47,047 nucleotides of DNA, taken from NCBI GenBank assembly GCA_025361165.1, contig JANYAU010000093.1:1-47047 (forward strand). Direction: 5' to 3'. Both the position numbers and the translations under genes were made by a program. The DNA is from Betaproteobacteria bacterium. Its GTDB lineage: Bacteria > Pseudomonadota > Gammaproteobacteria > Burkholderiales > Thiobacteraceae. The notes beneath the pieces were generated by a model. It ran no database searches and was not told the DNA's origin. It saw nothing but the letters and a program-made list of their open reading frames with translations. Each line of letters opens with the position of its first letter. Positions within the stretch are counted from its first letter, which is position 1. Positions 2,642-23,808 of the stretch are shown here, piece after piece.

Positions 2642-3748
2642 TTATTGCGCGAAAAAATCCTTCACTCTATCCATCCACCCCTTGGCGCGCGGGTTATTGT
2701 CTTGGCCTTGGCTGATGGCCTCTAACTCGTGCAGCAATTCCTTCTGCCGCGCGTTGAGATTGATCGGGGTTTCGATCACTACGTGGCAATAGAGATCGCC
2801 GTATTGTTGGCTGCGTACGCCTTTAATGCCTTTGCCGCGCAGGCGGAATACTTTGCCGGTTTGGGTTTCTTCCGCGACTTTTATTTTGGCCTGGCCGTCT
2901 AAAGTGGGGATATCGATTTCGCCGCCGAGCGCGGCGGTGGTAAAGCTCACTGGCATTTCGCAGTGCAAATCGTCGTGATCGCGTTTGAACACCGGATGCT
3001 CTTTGATCTGGATCATCACATACAGATCGCCGGGTGGTCCGCTGTTGATGCCATGCTCGCCTTCGCCGGAGAGGCGAATGCGGTCGCCTTCGTCCACGCC
3101 GGCGGGGATTTTTACCGACAAGGTTTTATGCTGTTTCACCCGGCCCGCGCCGTGGCACGCGGTACAGGGATCGGCGATGGTTTTGCCGCTGCCGTGACAA
3201 GTGGGGCAGGTCTGCTGAATCGAGAAAAAGCCCTGCTGCATGCGTACTTGGCCGTGGCCGCCACACATGCTGCACGTGGCCGCTTGGGTGCCGGGCTTAG
3301 CGCCGGTGCCTTCGCAGGTCTCGCACACTTCCATGGTGGGAATGCGGATTTTGGTTTCGGTGCCGCGCGCGGCTTCTTCGAGAGAAATTTCTAAGTTGTA
3401 GCGCAGGTCGGCACCGCGATAGACATTGGTGCGGCGTCCGCCGCCGCCACCACCGAAGATGTCGCCGAAAATGTCGGAGAAGGCATCGGCGAAATTACCG
3501 AAGCCTTGTCCGCCGCCGCTGGCATCCATGCCGGCATGGCCAAATTGATCGTACTGCGCGCGCTTGTTGCCGTCGGACAATATCTCATAGGCTTCTTTCG
3601 CCTCTTTGAATTTGTCTTCGGCTTCGTGGCTATCCGGATTGCGATCCGGATGGTGTTTCATGGCGAGCTTGCGGTATGCCTTTTTGATATCGTCTTCGGC
3701 AGCGTCGCGGTTGACGCTCAGCACTTCGTAATAATCGCGTTTGGACAT
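2642..3748 (-). CDS. dnaJ: Chaperone DnaJ (Hsp40)
   Basis: A 368-residue type I Hsp40, the cochaperone that delivers unfolded clients to DnaK and stimulates its ATPase. The J domain occupies residues 1-70 with HPD at 33-35. It is followed by a Gly/Phe-rich linker (about 75-105) and the zinc domain with all four repeats [24 protein letters not shown] and CTACHGAG, then the two substrate-binding beta domains. Nothing is missing. It is last in the minus-strand grpE-dnaK-dnaJ block, separated from dnaK by a palindromic repeat that also contains the DNA just before its start. It ends flush against ppa. Confidence 0.98.
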
Positions 3749-3758
3749 TTAGATCACT

Positions 3759-3828
3759 CGCCACAGAGCACACAAAGGGCACAGAGCTTAACAGAGTCGC
3801 CTCTGGGTTCTCTGTGCCCTCGGTGGCA
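3759..3828. repeat. CACAGAG-type imperfect inverted repeat
   Basis: This fills most of the 89-base dnaK-dnaJ spacer. The left arm begins GCCACAGAGCACACAAAGGG and contains GGGCACAGAG. The right arm, read in reverse complement, is GCCACCGAGGGCACAGAGAA followed by CCCAGAGG. Each arm is made of CACAGAG-like units spaced about 8-10 bases. It can fold into a long hairpin between the two cistrons. It may influence dnaJ translation or messenger stability, but that is inference. Confidence 0.75.
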
Positions 3829-3837
3829 GAAGATAAA

Positions 3838-5757
3838 TTATTTCTGGTCTTTTACTTCTTCGAATTCGGCGTCCACCACGTCTTCATCCGTTTTGCCGCC
3901 AGCGCCAGCGCCCGCGGCACCGCTTGCACCGGCTTGCGCCGCCTGCGCCTGCATTTGCTCGGCGAGTTTGTGCGAGGCAGTTCCCAGCGCTTGCGTCTTG
4001 GCTTCGATGGTTTCTTTGTCGTTGGACTTGAGTGCTTCCTCGGCGTCCTTGATCGCGGTTTCGATGGCGCTTTTTTCATCGGCACTGACTTTATCGCCGT
4101 GTTCAATCAAGGTCTTTTTCACCGAGTGGATCAGCGCATCGCATTGATTGCGCGCATCGACCAGTTCGCGCTGCTTGTGATCTTCCTCGGCATGCGTTTC
4201 GCCGTCACGCACCATGCGCTGGACTTCCTCGTCGGAGAGACCGGAGTTGGCTTTGATGGTGATTTTGGCTTCTTTACCGCTGGCTTTGTCTTTGGCCGAG
4301 ACATGCAGAATGCCGTTGGCGTCGATGTCGAAGGCCACTTCGATCTGTGGCATGCCGCGTGGCGCAGGCGGAATGTCGCCCAGGTTGAACTGACCCAAGC
4401 TCTTATTCGCAGCCGCCATTTCGCGCTCGCCTTGCAGCACCTGAATGGTCACCGCCGTTTGATTGTCGTCCGCGGTGGAGAACACTTGCTGCGCCTTGGT
4501 CGGAATCGTGGTGTTCTTCTGGATCAGCTTGGTCATGACGCCGCCCAGGGTTTCGATGCCGAGCGACAAGGGCGTCACGTCGAGCAACAGCACGTCTTTG
4601 ACTTCGCCTTGCAACACGCCGCCTTGGATCGCCGCACCGACGGCGACTGCTTCATCCGGATTCACATCGCGGCGCGGCTCTTTGCCGAAGAACGCTTTCA
4701 CTTTTTCTTGCACTTTCGGCATGCGCGTCATGCCGCCGACCAGGATCACATCTTCGATATCGGAGATCTTAATGCCCGAATCTTTGATCGCCATCTGGCA
4801 GGGGCCGATGGTACGCTCGATCAATTCCTCCACCAGGCTTTCGAACTTGGCGCGGGTGATCTTCACGTTCAAGTGTTTCGGGCCTGATGCATCGGCGGTG
4901 ATGTAGGGCAGATTCACTTCGGTTTGCTGCGCCGAAGACAACTCGATCTTGGCTTTTTCTGCCGCTTCTTTCAGGCGTTGCAGCGCGAGCATGTCTTTTC
5001 TCAAGTCGATGCCTTGCTCTTTCTTGAACTCATCCGCCAGGTAGTCGATCACGCGCTGGTCGAAGTCTTCGCCGCCCAGGAAGGTATCGCCGTTGGTGGA
5101 CAGCACTTCGAACTGATGCTCGCCTTCGACTTCGGCGATTTCGATAATGGAAATATCGAAGGTGCCGCCGCCCAGGTCGTACACGGCGATTTTGCGGTCG
5201 CCTTCTTTCTTGTCCATGCCGAAGGCCAGCGCGGCCGCGGTTGGCTCGTTGATGATACGTTTAACTTCCAGGCCGGCGATGCGCCCGGCGTCTTTGGTGG
5301 CTTGGCGCTGCGAATCGTTGAAATAAGCGGGCACGGTGATCACAGCCTCCGTGACTTCTTCACCGAGATAATCCTCCGCGGTTTTCTTCATCTTGCGCAG
5401 CACTTGGGCGGAAATTTCCGGCGGGGCCATTTTCTTGCCGCGCACTTCCACCCAGGCATCGTTGTTGTCCGCCTTCACGATGGTGTAGGGCACGAGGCTC
5501 ACGTCTTTTTGCACCATGGGTTCATCGAAGCGGCGGCCGATTAGGCGCTTCACCGCGAACAGCGTGTTCTTGGGGTTGGTGATCCCTTGGCGTTTGGCGG
5601 ACGCGCCAACCAGAATTTCGTCGTTGTCGGTATAGGCAACGATAGATGGCGTGGTGCGCGCGCCTTCCGCGTTCTCGATTACTTTAGGCTTGCCGCCTTC
5701 CATGATCGCGACGCAAGAGTTGGTCGTACCCAGGTCAATGCCGATAATTTTTCCCAT
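3838..5757 (-). CDS. dnaK: Chaperone DnaK (Hsp70)
   Basis: A 639-residue Hsp70. It starts [15 protein letters not shown], the phosphate-1 loop of the ATPase. Further signatures are [26 protein letters not shown] and [11 protein letters not shown]. The interdomain linker [15 protein letters not shown] is followed by the peptide-binding domain, a helical lid, and a Gly/Ala-rich tail ending [14 protein letters not shown], all as in proteobacterial DnaK. The ribosome site is AGAGGAAAG just before the ATG. It has its own sigma-32-type promoter in the grpE-dnaK spacer in addition to readthrough from grpE. Confidence 0.99.
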
Positions 5758-14446: not shown

Positions 14447-17400
14447 ATGCCAAAACGCACTGACATACACAGCATTCTCATCATCGGCGCTGGCCCGATT
14501 ATTATCGGCCAGGCGTGCGAGTTCGACTATTCGGGCGCGCAGGCGTGCAAGGCGCTGAAGGCGGAGGGCTATCGCGTCATCCTGGTGAATTCCAATCCGG
14601 CCACCATCATGACCGACCCCGGCATGGCGGATGTGACTTATATCGAACCGGTCACTTGGCGTTTCGTGGAAAAAATCATCGAAAAAGAGCGGCCCGATGC
14701 GCTGTTGCCGACCATGGGCGGCCAAACCGCGCTCAATTGCGCGCTCGATCTTGCTCGGCACGGCGTGCTGGAAAAATATGGCGTGCAGATGATAGGCGCG
14801 TCGCGCGAAGCGATCGACAAAGCCGAGGACCGCGAAAAATTCAAGCTGGCGATGGAAAAGATCGGCCTGGAGTGCGCGCGCGCGGCGATTGCGCACAGCC
14901 TGGAAGAGGCGCTGCAAGTGCAGGCCATGATCGGCTACCCGACGGTCATCCGCCCCTCGTTCACCATGGGCGGCATGGGCGGCGGCATCGCCTATAATCC
15001 GGAAGAGTTCGTGACGATTTGCGAGCGCGGGCTGGCCGCATCGCCCACCAAAGAATTGCTGATCGAAGAAGCGGTGATCGGCTGGAAAGAATTCGAGATG
15101 GAGGTGGTGCGCGACAAAGCGGACAACTGCATCATTATCTGCGCCATTGAAAATTTAGACCCGATGGGCGTGCATACCGGCGACTCGATCACGGTCGCGC
15201 CGGCGCAGACGCTTACCGACAAGGAATACCAAGTCATGCGCAACGCCTCGATCGCTGTGTTGCGCGAGATCGGGGTGGAGACTGGCGGCTCCAACGTGCA
15301 GTTCGCCATCAATCCTGCGGATGGGCGCATGCTGGTAATCGAAATGAACCCACGCGTGTCGCGCTCCTCCGCCTTGGCATCGAAAGCCACCGGTTTCCCG
15401 ATTGCAAAAGTCGCAGCCAAGCTGGCGGTCGGTTACACCCTGGACGAATTGAAGAACGACATCACCGGCGGGCGCACCCCAGCTTCGTTCGAACCTTCCA
15501 TCGATTACGTGGTGACCAAGGTGCCGCGTTTTGCCTTCGAGAAATTCAAGCAGGCCAATGATAGGCTCACCACGCAAATGAAATCGGTGGGTGAAGTCAT
15601 GGCGATCGGCCGCACCTTCCAAGAATCCCTGCAAAAAGCGCTGCGCGGTTTGGAAGTCGGCGTCGATGGCTTCGACGAAAAGACCCAAGACCGCGATACG
15701 CTGGAAGCGGAAATGGGCAACCCCGGCGCCGAGCGCCTGTGGTATGTGGCGGATGCTTTTCGCAATGGCATGTCGGTGGACGAAGTGCATGCCATCACCC
15801 ATATCGACCCCTGGTTCTTGATTCAAATCGAAGACCTGGTGCGTCGCGAGCAAGCCTTGGCTGGCCACAAATTGGAAGACCTGTCGCACGACGAATTGCG
15901 TGAACTGAAGCGTTGCGGTTTCTCCGACCGCCGCTTGGCGAAATTGCTCAGCACCGATCAACATGCAGTGCGCAAGCGCCGCTGGGATTTGGCGATTCAT
16001 CCGGTATACAAGCGGGTGGATACCTGCGCCGCCGAATTCGCCACCGATACCGCGTATCAATATTCGACCTATGAGGAAGAGTGCGAAGCCAATCCCACCA
16101 GCCGCAAAAAGATCATGGTGCTAGGTGGTGGGCCCAATCGCATCGGCCAAGGCATCGAGTTCGATTATTGCTGCGTACATGCCGCGATGGCGATGCGCGA
16201 GGACGGTTTCGAGACCATCATGGTCAATTGCAATCCGGAAACCGTGTCCACCGACTACGATACCTCCGATCGCTTGTATTTCGAGCCACTGACGCTGGAA
16301 GACGTGTTGGAAATCGTGCGCATCGAAAAGCCAGTAGGCGTGATCGTGCAATTCGGCGGGCAAACGCCGTTGAAATTGGCGCGCGATCTGGAAGCGAACG
16401 GTGTACCGATTATCGGCACCACGCCAGACGCCATCGACTGCGCCGAAGACCGCGAGCGCTTCCAAAAGCTGCTGCATGAGTTGAAGTTGCTGCAACCGCC
16501 GAATCGTACCGCGCGCAGTGGTGAGCAAGCGCTCAAGCTGGCCGAGGAAATCGGTTATCCACTGGTGGTGCGTCCATCGTATGTGCTGGGCGGGCGGGCG
16601 ATGGAAATTGTGCACGAGAAAGCCGATCTCGAACGCTATATGCGCGAGGCGGTGAAGGTCTCGAATAAATCGCCGGTGCTACTGGATCGCTTCTTGAACG
16701 ACGCCATCGAAGTCGACGTGGATGCGATTTGCGACGGCGCGGACGTGCTCATCGGCGGCATCATGGAGCACATCGAAGAAGCGGGAGTGCATTCGGGGGA
16801 CTCGGCATGCTCATTGCCGCCGTATAGCCTGAGCCCGGCACTGCAAACCGAATTGCGTGCGCAGACGGTGCGGCTAGCGCATGCGCTCAACGTCGTGGGC
16901 TTGATGAATATCCAATTCGCGATCCAAGGCGAAACGGTGTTCGTGCTGGAGGTTAATCCGCGCGCTTCGCGCACTGTGCCCTTCGTCTCCAAGGCCTGCG
17001 GTTTGCCGCTGGCGAAAATTTCCGCGCGCTGTATGGCGGGCCAGACGCTTAAATCTCAAGGGGTCTTGCATGAAGTGATTCCACCGTATTTTTCGGTGAA
17101 GGAAGCGGTGTTCCCCTTCATTAAGTTTCCGGGCGTGGATCCGATTTTAGGGCCGGAGATGAAGTCCACCGGCGAAGTGATGGGCATAGCAGATTCCTTC
17201 GGCGAAGCCTTTCTCAAATCCCAAATCGCCGCCGGGATCAAGTTACCGGCATCAGGCAAAGTCTTCATCAGCGTGAAACCTTTGGACAAGCCGCGCGTCG
17301 TAGAAGTTGGCCGCGCCTTGCTGGAGTTGGGCTTTACGCTGTGCGCCACGCGCGGCACGGCCAATGTGATGCAAGCCGAGGGCTTGACGGTGCAAGTGGT

Positions 17401-19659: not shown

Positions 19660-21552
19660 TTGAACAACACTTTCAAAACTATCGCTATTTGGCTTGTCAT
19701 CGGGCTGGTGCTCATGACGCTGTTTTCGCAATTCACGGCCAAGCGCAACACGGCTGCTTCAGTGGATTTTTCGTCTTTCATGCAAGACGTGAAGGGCAAA
19801 CAAATTGCCGAGGTGCAAATCGACGGCAACACGGTGCGCGGCAAGCGCCAGGACGGCAGCCGTTTTGTGACCTATGCGCCCAACTATATTTGGCTGGTCG
19901 ATGATTTGCTCAAAAGCGGCGTGAAAATCGAAGCCAAGGCGCCGGAAGAGCAATCCTTGCTCACCAATATTTTCATTTCCTGGTTCCCGATGCTGTTGTT
20001 GATCGGCGTATGGGTATTCTTCATGCGCCAGATGCAAGGCGGCGGGCGCGGCGGCGCGTTTTCGTTCGGCAAGAGCCGGGCGCGCATGCTCGACGAATCC
20101 ACCAACGTCATCACCTTTGCCGATGTGGCGGGTTGCGACGAGGCAAAAGCAGAAGTCTCCGAGTTGGTCGAGTTCCTGCGCGATCCGGGCAAGTTTCAAA
20201 AACTCGGCGGCCGCATTCCGCGCGGTGTGCTGATGGTGGGCAGCCCCGGTACCGGCAAGACGCTCTTGGCCAAAGCCATTGCGGGCGAAGCTAAGGTTCC
20301 TTTCTTCTCCATCTCCGGTTCCGATTTCGTGGAAATGTTTGTCGGCGTGGGTGCGGCGCGGGTGCGCGATATGTTCGAGCAGGCGAAGAAAAGCGCGCCC
20401 TGCATCGTTTTCATCGACGAGATCGACGCCGTGGGCCGCCAGCGTGGTGCAGGCTTGGGTGGCGGCAACGACGAACGCGAACAAACACTGAACCAATTGC
20501 TAGTAGAAATGGACGGCTTCGAAGGCACCGCCGGCGTGATCGTGATCGCTGCCACCAACCGCCCCGATGTGCTCGATCCGGCACTGTTGCGTCCGGGTCG
20601 TTTCGATCGCCAAGTGGTGGTGCCGCTGCCGGATATCCGCGGCCGCGAGCAAATTCTCATGGTGCACATGCGCAAAGTACCGATCGCCCCGGATGTGCGC
20701 GCTGACGTGATCGCGCGCGGCACGCCGGGCATGTCCGGCGCCGATCTGGCTAATTTGGTCAACGAATCGGCATTGTTCGCTGCGCGTAGCAACAAACGCC
20801 TGGTGGACATGGAAGATTTTGAACGCGCTAAAGACAAGATTCTCATGGGCGCCGAGCGCCGCTCGATTGTGATGCCCGAGCACGAACGTCGTAATACGGC
20901 TTATCACGAATCGGGTCACGCGGTGGTGGCGCGGCTTCTGCCCACGACCGACCCGGTGCATAAAGTCACCATCATTCCGCGCGGGCGCGCACTGGGCGTG
21001 ACCATGCAGTTGCCGACCGAAGATCGCTATAGCATGGATCGCGAGCACCTCCTGCAAAACATTTCGGTGTTGTTTGGCGGGCGTATCGCGGAAGAGATTT
21101 TCATGCACCAAATGACCACCGGCGCTTCGAATGACTTCGAACGCGCAACTGAAATGGCGCGGCGCATGGTGACGCAATGGGGTATGTCCGATGCCCTCGG
21201 GACGATGGTGTATGGCGACAACGACGGCGAAGTTTTCCTCGGGCGTTCTATTTCTACGCACAAGAACGTGTCGGAAGCGACGATGCTGAAAGTCGATATG
21301 GAAATCCGCCGCATCATCGACGAGCAATATGCGCTGGCGCGGCGCTTGATCGAAGAAAACCGCGACAAGGTCGAGACCATGGCCAAAGCGCTGCTCGAAT
21401 GGGAAACCATCGACGCCGACCAGGTGAACGACATCATGGAAGGCCGTGCGCCGCGCCCGCCTAAGCCAACGCAACCGCCGGCTCCGCCCTCGCAAAGCAA
21501 TACACCCAGCGCACCACCTGCGCCGACGACCACGCCGGCGGAAGAAGTTTAA
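19660..21552 (+). CDS. ftsH: ATP-dependent zinc metalloprotease FtsH
   Basis: A 630-residue membrane AAA+ protease that degrades misfolded membrane proteins and regulators such as sigma-32 and LpxC. Two transmembrane segments (about 5-24 and 100-121) bracket the periplasmic part. The AAA domain has Walker A GSPGTGKT, Walker [10 protein letters not shown] and the second region of homology [20 protein letters not shown]. The zinc site is HESGH with a distal ligand in [12 protein letters not shown]. The tail is proline-rich. The start is TTG at 19660 behind AAGGAAC; no ATG lies before the first membrane helix. Walker A has Ser where GPPG is usual. Confidence 0.97.
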
Positions 21553-21558
21553 CGGCAG

Positions 21559-21626
21559 TACTGAAGACTGAGGTTTAAGGATTGAGAGGGAAAAGCCTCT
21601 CGGTCTCACTCAGTCCTCCATCCTCT
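21559..21626. repeat. GACTGAGG-type inverted repeat before folP
   Basis: The left arm carries GAAGACTGAGG, TTTAAGGATTGAG and GAGAGG. The right arm in reverse complement carries AGAGGATGGAGGACTGAG, TGAGACC and GAGAGG. GAGAGG (21584-21589) and CCTCTC (21596-21601) close the hairpin over a six-base loop. The right arm ends directly at the folP ATG, so the bases before that start are CCTCC-like rather than a GGAGG ribosome site. Confidence 0.7.
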
Positions 21627-22454
21627 ATGTTCTCTTGCGGCCGTTTTACCTTCTCCCTCTCCCGCCCGCTTATCATGGGCATCGTCAATGTCACGCCCGA
21701 TTCGTTTTCCGACGGCGGCCATTTCCGAGATGCCAAACACGCCATTGAATATGCTCTCCAACTGATAGAACAAGGCGCGGATCTGCTCGACATCGGCGGG
21801 GAATCTACCCGGCCCAATGCGGCCCCGGTACCGGAAAAAGAGGAGCTGGCGCGCGTGTTGCCGGTGCTGGAAGGCCTGCGTGATACGGGCGTGGCGCTGT
21901 CAATCGATACCCAAAAACCTGCTGTCATGCGTGCCGCTATCGAAGTGGGTGCGGATATGGTGAACGACGTGAACGCACTGCAATCACCCGGTGCGCTGGC
22001 GGCGGTGGCGGATTCAACTGTCGCGGTGTGCTTGATGCATAAGCAGGGCGACCCGCAAACCATGCAACAGCTCCCTTTGTATTACGATGTGGCGGCCGAA
22101 GTGCGGGCTTTTCTGCAAGCGCGGCTGCAAGTCGCACAGGCAGCGGGCATTGCGCGCGAGCGCTTGGTAATTGATCCCGGGTTTGGTTTCGGCAAGAATC
22201 TTGAGCATAATGTCACCCTGCTCAGACAATTTCATGCACTGACCGATCTCGGCGTGCCGGTGTTGGCGGGCCTGTCGCGTAAATCCATGCTCGGCAAACT
22301 CGCTGGTCTGGAAGTGCATGAACGGGTGCATGCCAGTGTCGCGGCCGCGGTGCTGGCGCTGATGAAGGGTGCGAAGATAGTCAGGGTGCACGATGTGAAG
22401 GCGACGCATGATGCGCTTGCAATCGTTAACGCAATAGAGGGATGGCATGAGTAG
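21627..22454 (+). CDS. folP: Dihydropteroate synthase
   Basis: A 275-residue DHPS joining p-aminobenzoate to the pterin diphosphate in folate synthesis; the sulfonamide target. Seen: [79 protein letters not shown] and [14 protein letters not shown] start it at the ATG at 21627; the ORF-track start (TTG at 21582) is inside the palindromic repeat. No Shine-Dalgarno sequence precedes the ATG. It overlaps glmM by eight bases, as in the conserved ftsH-folP-glmM order. Confidence 0.96.
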
Positions 22455-23808
22455 AAAATATTTCGGCACTGACGGCGTGCGCGGGCGGGTAGGCGAAGCG
22501 CCGATTACGCCTGATTTTGTGATGCGGCTGGGCTACGCTGCAGGGCGTATTTTGGCGGGCGGTGACCGGCGCGTGCGCGGCGAACGGCCTAGCGTCATCA
22601 TCGGCAAGGACACGCGTATTTCCGGCTATATGTTGGAATCCGCGCTCGAAGCGGGCTTATCGGCGGCGGGGGTAGACGTGCTGCTGGTGGGGCCGATGCC
22701 GACGCCGGCAGTGGCGTATCTCACGCGTGCCCTGCGCTGCCAGGCGGGCGTTGTCATTTCCGCTTCGCACAATCCTTATCCCGACAACGGCATCAAATTT
22801 TTTGGCCCGAGCGGCATGAAACTGGCGGACAAAGTCGAGCGCGCGATCGAAGCCGGTCTTGACGAACCCTTGTACTGCATGCCCTCAGATAAGCTGGGCA
22901 AAGCGCGGCGTATTGATGATGCCGACGGACGCTATATTGAGTTCTGTAAAAGCACGTTTCCGAATGAACTGGATTTGCGCGGCATGCGCATCGTGTTGGA
23001 TTGCGGCCACGGCGCGACTTACCACATCGCGCCGTCTGTGTTCCACGAGCTGGGCGCGGAAGTCATTGCCATCGGCGTCAAACCGGACGGGCTCAACATC
23101 AATCTCGACTGCGGTTCGACGCATCCCGAAGCTTTGCAGCGTGCGGTGCGCGAAAACCAAGCCGATCTCGGCATTGCCTTCGACGGCGACGGCGACCGGG
23201 TGATGATGGTCGATGCCGACGGCACGCTCTACGACGGCGATCTCATGCTCTATATCATCGCGCATTATCGCGCTAAGCAGGGTTTGCTCAAGGGCGGTGT
23301 GGTGGGCACAGTGATGAGCAATCTCGGCCTGGAACACGCCTTCGACAAAAATAAAATCCCGTTTGCGCGCGCCGCGGTGGGCGACCGCTACGTGCTAGAG
23401 GTGCTGGAAGAGAAAGGCTGGCAATTGGGCGGCGAATCCTCCGGTCATATTATTTGCCGTGACAAACACAGTACCGGCGACGGCATTATTTCTGCATTGC
23501 AAGTGCTGCATGCGCTACGCGCCGGCAAGCGCACACTGAAAGAAGCGGCCAAGGACGTCACCGTCTATCCGCAAGTGTTGATCAATGTGCCGATCAACAA
23601 GGGCTTTGATTTCCGCGATAGTATTCCGGTGCAAGCGCTGTTGGTCGAGGCCGATACCACGCTCAGAGGCAATGGCCGCGTGCTGTTGCGCAACTCCGGC
23701 ACCGAGCCGGTGTTACGCGTGATGGTGGAAGGCAAGGATTCCAGCGTGGTACAGCAGTGGGCGAAGAGACTCGCCGCGTGTATAGAAGAGTCTGCGCAAA
23801 TCGCCTAA
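22447..23808 (+). CDS. glmM: Phosphoglucosamine mutase
   Basis: A 453-residue GlmM interconverting glucosamine 6- and 1-phosphate for UDP-GlcNAc, peptidoglycan and LPS. The N-terminus [16 protein letters not shown], the catalytic phosphoserine loop [18 protein letters not shown], the metal-binding [11 protein letters not shown], the sugar-binding GGESSGH and the phosphate-binding [15 protein letters not shown] are all present. Length is slightly over the E. coli protein. The ATG overlaps the end of folP, so translation is probably coupled. A hairpin follows two bases after the stop. Confidence 0.97.

Follow-up and report, generated by a model that had tools for sequence, protein, structure and literature searches.

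Almost all of the 74-nt spacer between ftsH and folP in the window (the whole 47,047-nt stretch analysed here, from a Betaproteobacteria bacterium) is taken up by a heptamer-repeat hairpin. The inverted repeat at this site is real, yet it is no lone palindrome: it is a hairpin made of degenerate tandem heptamers. Judging from the sequences of related genomes, the hairpin rather than its letters appears to be conserved, with place and structure preserved and the units replaced. It probably marks where ftsH ends rather than serving as a special start signal for folP.

All features of the locus lie on the + strand. The upstream gene, ftsH, encodes the ATP-dependent zinc metalloprotease FtsH (19660–21552 in the ORF list; NCBIfam TIGR01241, 885.9 bits, above cut-off) and ends in a TAA stop codon at 21550–21552. 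It is followed by the spacer (21553–21626) and by folP, encoding dihydropteroate synthase (21627–22454; TIGR01496, 324.5 bits, above cut-off), which begins with an ATG at 21627–21629 and lacks a Shine-Dalgarno (SD) sequence. The start of glmM, encoding phosphoglucosamine mutase (22447–23808; TIGR01455, 627 bits, above cut-off), lies inside the end of folP and overlaps its stop. Sequence and pairing place the 5′ purine-rich arm, with the degenerate heptamers ACTGAAG, ACTGAGG, TTTAAGG and ATTGAGA, at 21560–21587. A short centre follows (21588–21605), the inner pairing of which differs between two fold predictions, and then a like array in reverse complement, the 3′ pyrimidine-rich arm (21606–21626), with strong pairing to ~21618.

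A first-pass annotation of this DNA had described a palindromic repeat forming the folP leader, and the inverted arms it reported, GAAGACTGAG (21563–21572) and CTCAGTCCTC (21609–21618), were confirmed as 90% complementary. The RNA from 21550 to 21660 has a predicted minimum free energy of −37.3 kcal/mol (z −2.81; 2 of 200 shuffles were equally good), and the 74 nt after the ftsH stop, folded alone, give −27.8 kcal/mol with a hairpin z of about −2.5. The right arm had also been taken to run to the base before the ATG. This holds for the heptamer register; in the spacer folded alone, the last paired base is 8 nt upstream of the folP ATG, so that the repeat register extends to the start codon and the pairing does not. 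In the 21550–21660 fold, ACGGC pairs with GCCGT across the folP start. Self-similarity of the window spacer peaks at lag 7 (z 3.08, the highest of lags 3–15), and the signal is period 7, not the octamer GACTGAGG, which was enriched neither in the window (pattern GGACTGAGG, 4 matches at 1 mismatch versus 5.85 expected) nor genome-wide. The one Rfam hit in the window was a tRNA away from the spacer; at the spacer itself nothing was credible or above the gathering cut-off, and no promoter consensus for folP was found within the spacer.

We collected FolP relatives from public genomes and from the genus, family and order, and took the spacer wherever ftsH and folP adjoin, obtaining a comparison set of 118 distinct ftsH-folP spacers. 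A lag-7 z of at least 2.5 was reached by 33 of the 118, as against 4, 2, 3, 2 and 2 at lags 5, 6, 8, 9 and 10, respectively. The heptamer set used below (n = 35) was defined by this cut and then by eye, removing L214 and L233, which looked like plain hairpins, and adding L002, L007, L017 and L236, evident heptamer hairpins that fell below it. In total, ~34 related genomes carry a heptamer hairpin in the ftsH-folP gap; across the heptamer set it begins a median of 3 nt (0–10) past the ftsH stop and ends a median of 3 nt before folP. The first sets, of 22 heptamer spacers and 23 relatives, were picked by eye. These 22 spacers had a mean lag-7 z of 4.88 and a mean lag-14 z of 3.31, with other lags within ±0.7 and a mean hairpin z of −5.8; lag-7 z was −0.11 in 25 comparison spacers. 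Across the 23 relatives (150 kb of surrounding sequence), 16 of 23 lag-7 clusters sat in the ftsH-folP spacer, and the same survey placed 0/10, 0/61, 1/6, 2/85 and 0/8 clusters there for lags 5, 6, 8, 9 and 10.

The turnover of the unit is clearest within the genus of the window, where the hairpin is present in all eight sampled genomes and the unit is different in each. Left-arm units are GACTGAG/GATTGAG in the window, GGTTAAG in L002, GTGAGAC/GTAAGGG in L003, GCGTGAG in L004, GGACTGA in L005, GTGAGGC/GTAAGGA in L006, GGATTCA in L016 and GGCGTCA in L079; more distant genomes use GGTGAAA, GTAGCTG, GTTAGTC, GAAGGGA, GTGAACG and others. The first-pass annotation had named a case against its own claim, namely relatives that share the sequence but show no repeat character; this was looked for, and in the relatives it is the repeat character that persists and the sequence that changes. 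The order of the arms is only partly special, since the purine-rich arm also comes first in 61 of 73 non-heptamer spacers and, in the window's genome, in 45 of 62 hairpins. All three reading frames have a stop codon in 14 of the 35 heptamer spacers (3.9 expected) and in 10 of the 73 others; as a general cause of period 7 this was rejected, because some units, GGACAGA among them, are free of stop codons. In three spacers (L008, L010 and L032) the right arm ends in TG before the ATG (..CTGATG), and the resulting TGA overlaps the folP start codon.

Spacers outside the heptamer set mostly carry a different element. A stem followed by at least five T in seven positions was found in 54 of the 73 non-heptamer spacers versus 7 of the 35 heptamer spacers, which indicates that the heptamer hairpin stands where the ftsH terminator would otherwise be. 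The ftsH intrinsic terminators of other proteobacteria, exemplified by GGCGGCC-GGCCGCC-TTTTTT in L026, L028 and L049 (GGCGGCC..GGCCGCCTTTTTT), share their position and a G+C-rich hairpin with the window; the window hairpin differs from them in lacking a U-run and in its longer stem, made of heptamers. A terminator scan of the window spacer was negative, with no G+C-rich stem plus U-run and no T-run, so that termination at the window hairpin is at most putative. In L246, L066 and L217, which are among the seven heptamer spacers with a stem and T-run, heptamer arms wrap a canonical terminator hairpin, and these spacers may be intermediates of terminator replacement.

With regard to the folP start, the first-pass annotation was right that CCTCC (21615–21619) and ATCCTCT (21620–21626) stand in the SD position without SD character, giving folP a pyrimidine-rich leader of anti-SD type; the pairing it assigned to them with the left half of the repeat occurs in part only, with AGGATTGAG and GAGG in the folded strand. 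Its further claim that the repeat forces an unusual start on folP is weak. SD-like 4-mers upstream of folP are absent from 35 of 35 heptamer spacers and from 61 of the 73 spacers without the repeat, and only 161 of 511 well-supported genes sampled from the window's own genome have one, among start calls that are themselves biased towards SD. Initiation without an SD is therefore nothing unusual here, and the palindrome does not account for it. In close relatives the start is conserved at the ATG corresponding to 21627, 16–17 codons upstream of MGIVN. An alternative in-frame TTG at 21582, with GAGG 8 nt upstream, was discarded, as the extension it would add is not conserved.

We also compared the spacer with the rest of the window's own genome (G000, estimated 93.65% complete), of which 0.8 Mb was sampled. 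No lag-7 excess was detected in this sample, which contained 1 strict array; in the genome, GGACTGAGGACTGAG had six matches at 2 mismatches, two of them the ftsH-folP site itself, against three for the reversed control. Among 237 own-genome post-stop regions, the ftsH-folP region ranks in the top ~2% for lag 7 and in the top 15–17% for stability, and is the sole case in which period 7 and a hairpin are combined. Hairpin strength alone is unremarkable in this genome, many genes having an equally stable post-stop structure. Other repeats were seen as well. Within the window, an intergenic inverted repeat at 3748–3830 (− strand) follows the stop of a gene called at 3838–5757 (− strand); it reads CCACCGAGGGCACAGAGAACCCAGAG..CTCTGTTAAGCTCTGTGCCCTTTGTGTGCTCTGTGG, with CACAGAG-type units of ~8–9 nt, the purine-rich arm first and a fold of −37.0 kcal/mol. 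Elsewhere in the genome, L133 has a palindrome of the CACCTAAT type from an inverted period-8 array (15165–15200), and L119 a tandem-repeat palindrome from a TTCGGGT/TTCCGTT heptamer array (2113–2149).

The explanation we put forward, to which we give even chances, is that a hairpin at the ftsH 3′ end acts as an insulator or weak attenuator in the terminator's stead, and that its repeats are renewed; we infer each functional step, as well as the mutational mechanism, from what the sequences show directly, namely the hairpin, its period 7 and position, the turnover of the unit, the missing terminator signature and the missing SD. The intercistronic RNA hairpin of two convergent degenerate heptamer arrays, purine-rich arm first, would do a terminator-like job without a U-run, separating the ftsH message from folP-glmM and capping it. 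It might hold back ribosomes that come off the ftsH stop codon, a role in line with the proposal that structures right after stop codons are insulators against re-initiation where the gap is at least 25 nt (PMC7518266), and might serve as a protective 3′ end after processing, with attenuation weak at most. Expression of folP-glmM would then come from read-through transcripts, and folP would be initiated de novo just beyond the stem, on the pyrimidine-rich leader that lacks an SD, possibly with help from a ribosome that frays the base of the stem on finishing ftsH. The heptamer unit would be replaced by slippage within the arms and template switching between them, with selection keeping the stem; RNA stems can be created and mended by template switching (PMC8794818). 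A wider version, which we offer tentatively and regard as improbable, is that Nitrosomonadales-type Betaproteobacteria possess a class of gene-boundary hairpins whose arms are rewritten together into new heptamers, with no loss of position, stem or purine-first order. What would be selected in such a class is a sequence-free hairpin, with stems arising via slippage and template switching and able to replace a terminator.

Coupling of folP to ftsH, suggested by the first-pass annotation, has to be split in two. As reinitiation it is disfavoured by the 74-nt gap together with the stable post-stop structure: termination-reinitiation pairs overlap or are separated by a very short gap, the process is nearly abolished by a gap of ~20 nt (PMC10666635), and in a synthetic operon stable structures just after the stop lowered downstream expression (PMC7518266). 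Coupling by hairpin opening, in which the stem hides the folP start until a ribosome terminating at ftsH covers the base of the stem and frees the start, is possible but unlikely, and the same two reports weigh against it as well. In its favour, the stem base lies 0–7 nt past the ftsH stop in 34 of the 35 heptamer spacers (10 in the window). In folding models with the first 12 nt after the stop blocked, the predicted cost of opening the folP start falls by a median of 3.1 kcal/mol, versus 0.2 without repeats; for the window it would drop from 10.3 to 7.9 kcal/mol at 12 nt blocked, and to 5.1 at 15 nt. Such a drop is, however, expected of any stem this close to a stop. Coupling across a gap has a precedent in rpmI-rplT (+52 nt; PMC12548453), but the relatives with a plain terminator manage without any stem-opening geometry.

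The main rival to an ftsH-end hairpin under selection is a mutational or selfish repeat, generated by slippage and template switching in tolerant gaps, with the ftsH-folP spacer an inherited, functionless hot spot. In most of the surveyed bacterial genomes the heptamer is the most frequent long simple repeat, in the account of Mrazek 2007 given in PMC4679880, and array-rich genomes bear many arrays (67 in 305 kb of Gallionella genome G005, in contigs chosen for GGACTGA arrays); arrays at so many loci fit a mutational process as well as they fit function. All 15 clear inverted pairs of G005 begin with the purine-rich arm, and the two arms of L010 are built from different units. Nevertheless, this rival is weakened by the window's own genome, which is almost without other arrays and yet keeps the one at ftsH-folP. 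The hairpin has also been kept in all eight sampled members of the genus despite unit turnover, and the site bears a terminator in other genomes; we consider a purely mutational origin possible but doubtful. A REP/BIME-like element moved by a Y1 transposase (RAYT) would likewise be an extragenic palindrome near a gene 3′ end, and four array-bearing relatives (G001, G004, G005 and G007) of the five genomes searched have Y1_Tnp (RAYT-type) genes, with 3–5 matches each. For the window's own genome, however, this origin is largely refuted and highly improbable: Y1_Tnp (PF01797) was not found in G000 at its estimated 93.65% completeness, the element is not multicopy there, and the unit varies from genome to genome.

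If the account of an ftsH 3′-end hairpin with renewed repeats is true, the site is one where the wholesale rewriting of RNA stems at a held position can be watched, and a natural test of the idea that RNA hairpins are built and repaired by template switching (PMC8794818). It would illustrate, too, how a repeat hairpin can take over from a bacterial terminator. The analysis corrects a tempting misreading of the palindrome as a start signal, and is relevant to the way in which expression of folP-glmM is kept apart from that of ftsH.

Heptamer hairpins as such are already known, and the papers we searched described none that is retained at a single orthologous site while its unit turns over. The closest system is the GGGAATC heptamer of Xanthomonas, with 70–75 convergent pairs per genome in which two close, opposite arrays can form stem-loops; the repeats are mostly intergenic, nearer the upstream gene's 3′ end (28 nt vs 160 nt) and rare between divergent genes (PMC4692102). 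The window spacer shares the 7-nt tandem periodicity, the two pairing arrays in inverted orientation and the intergenic position near the upstream 3′ end. Many interspersed copies of one unit are not seen in the window's own genome, and are seen in some relatives such as G005, which has 58 matches to two GGACTGAG units. Classified G005 elements lie in 24 co-directional, 4 convergent and 1 divergent gaps (background spacers: 106, 11 and 14), and a further 17 elements were called inside genes, some via mis-called starts. Within G005, L165, L164, L162 and L169 carry densely packed inverted arrays of the heptamers GGACTGA, GGACAGA, GGATCGA and GTGGGAA, and several of these arrays fill the entire intergenic gap and end at the next ATG.

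Each Xanthomonas genome has a single multicopy unit that could form G-quadruplexes, and the long repeats occur at different genes in two species (PMC4692102); here, in contrast, there is about one copy in the window's genome, the unit differs in each relative, the site is a single orthologous one, and the units have no G3 tract each. Ribosome termination structures (RTS; PMC7518266) resemble the window spacer in having a stable RNA structure immediately after the stop, with the next gene at least 25 nt away; they are defined by stability alone, without a periodic repeat, and their function, tested in a synthetic operon, is putative for the window spacer. The TAACTGA repeats of Beggiatoaceae (PMC4679880) are likewise heptamers that abut start codons mostly without an SD sequence; unlike the arrays in the ftsH-folP gap, they are direct repeats of one fixed unit, mostly in forward orientation, with only one inverted case.
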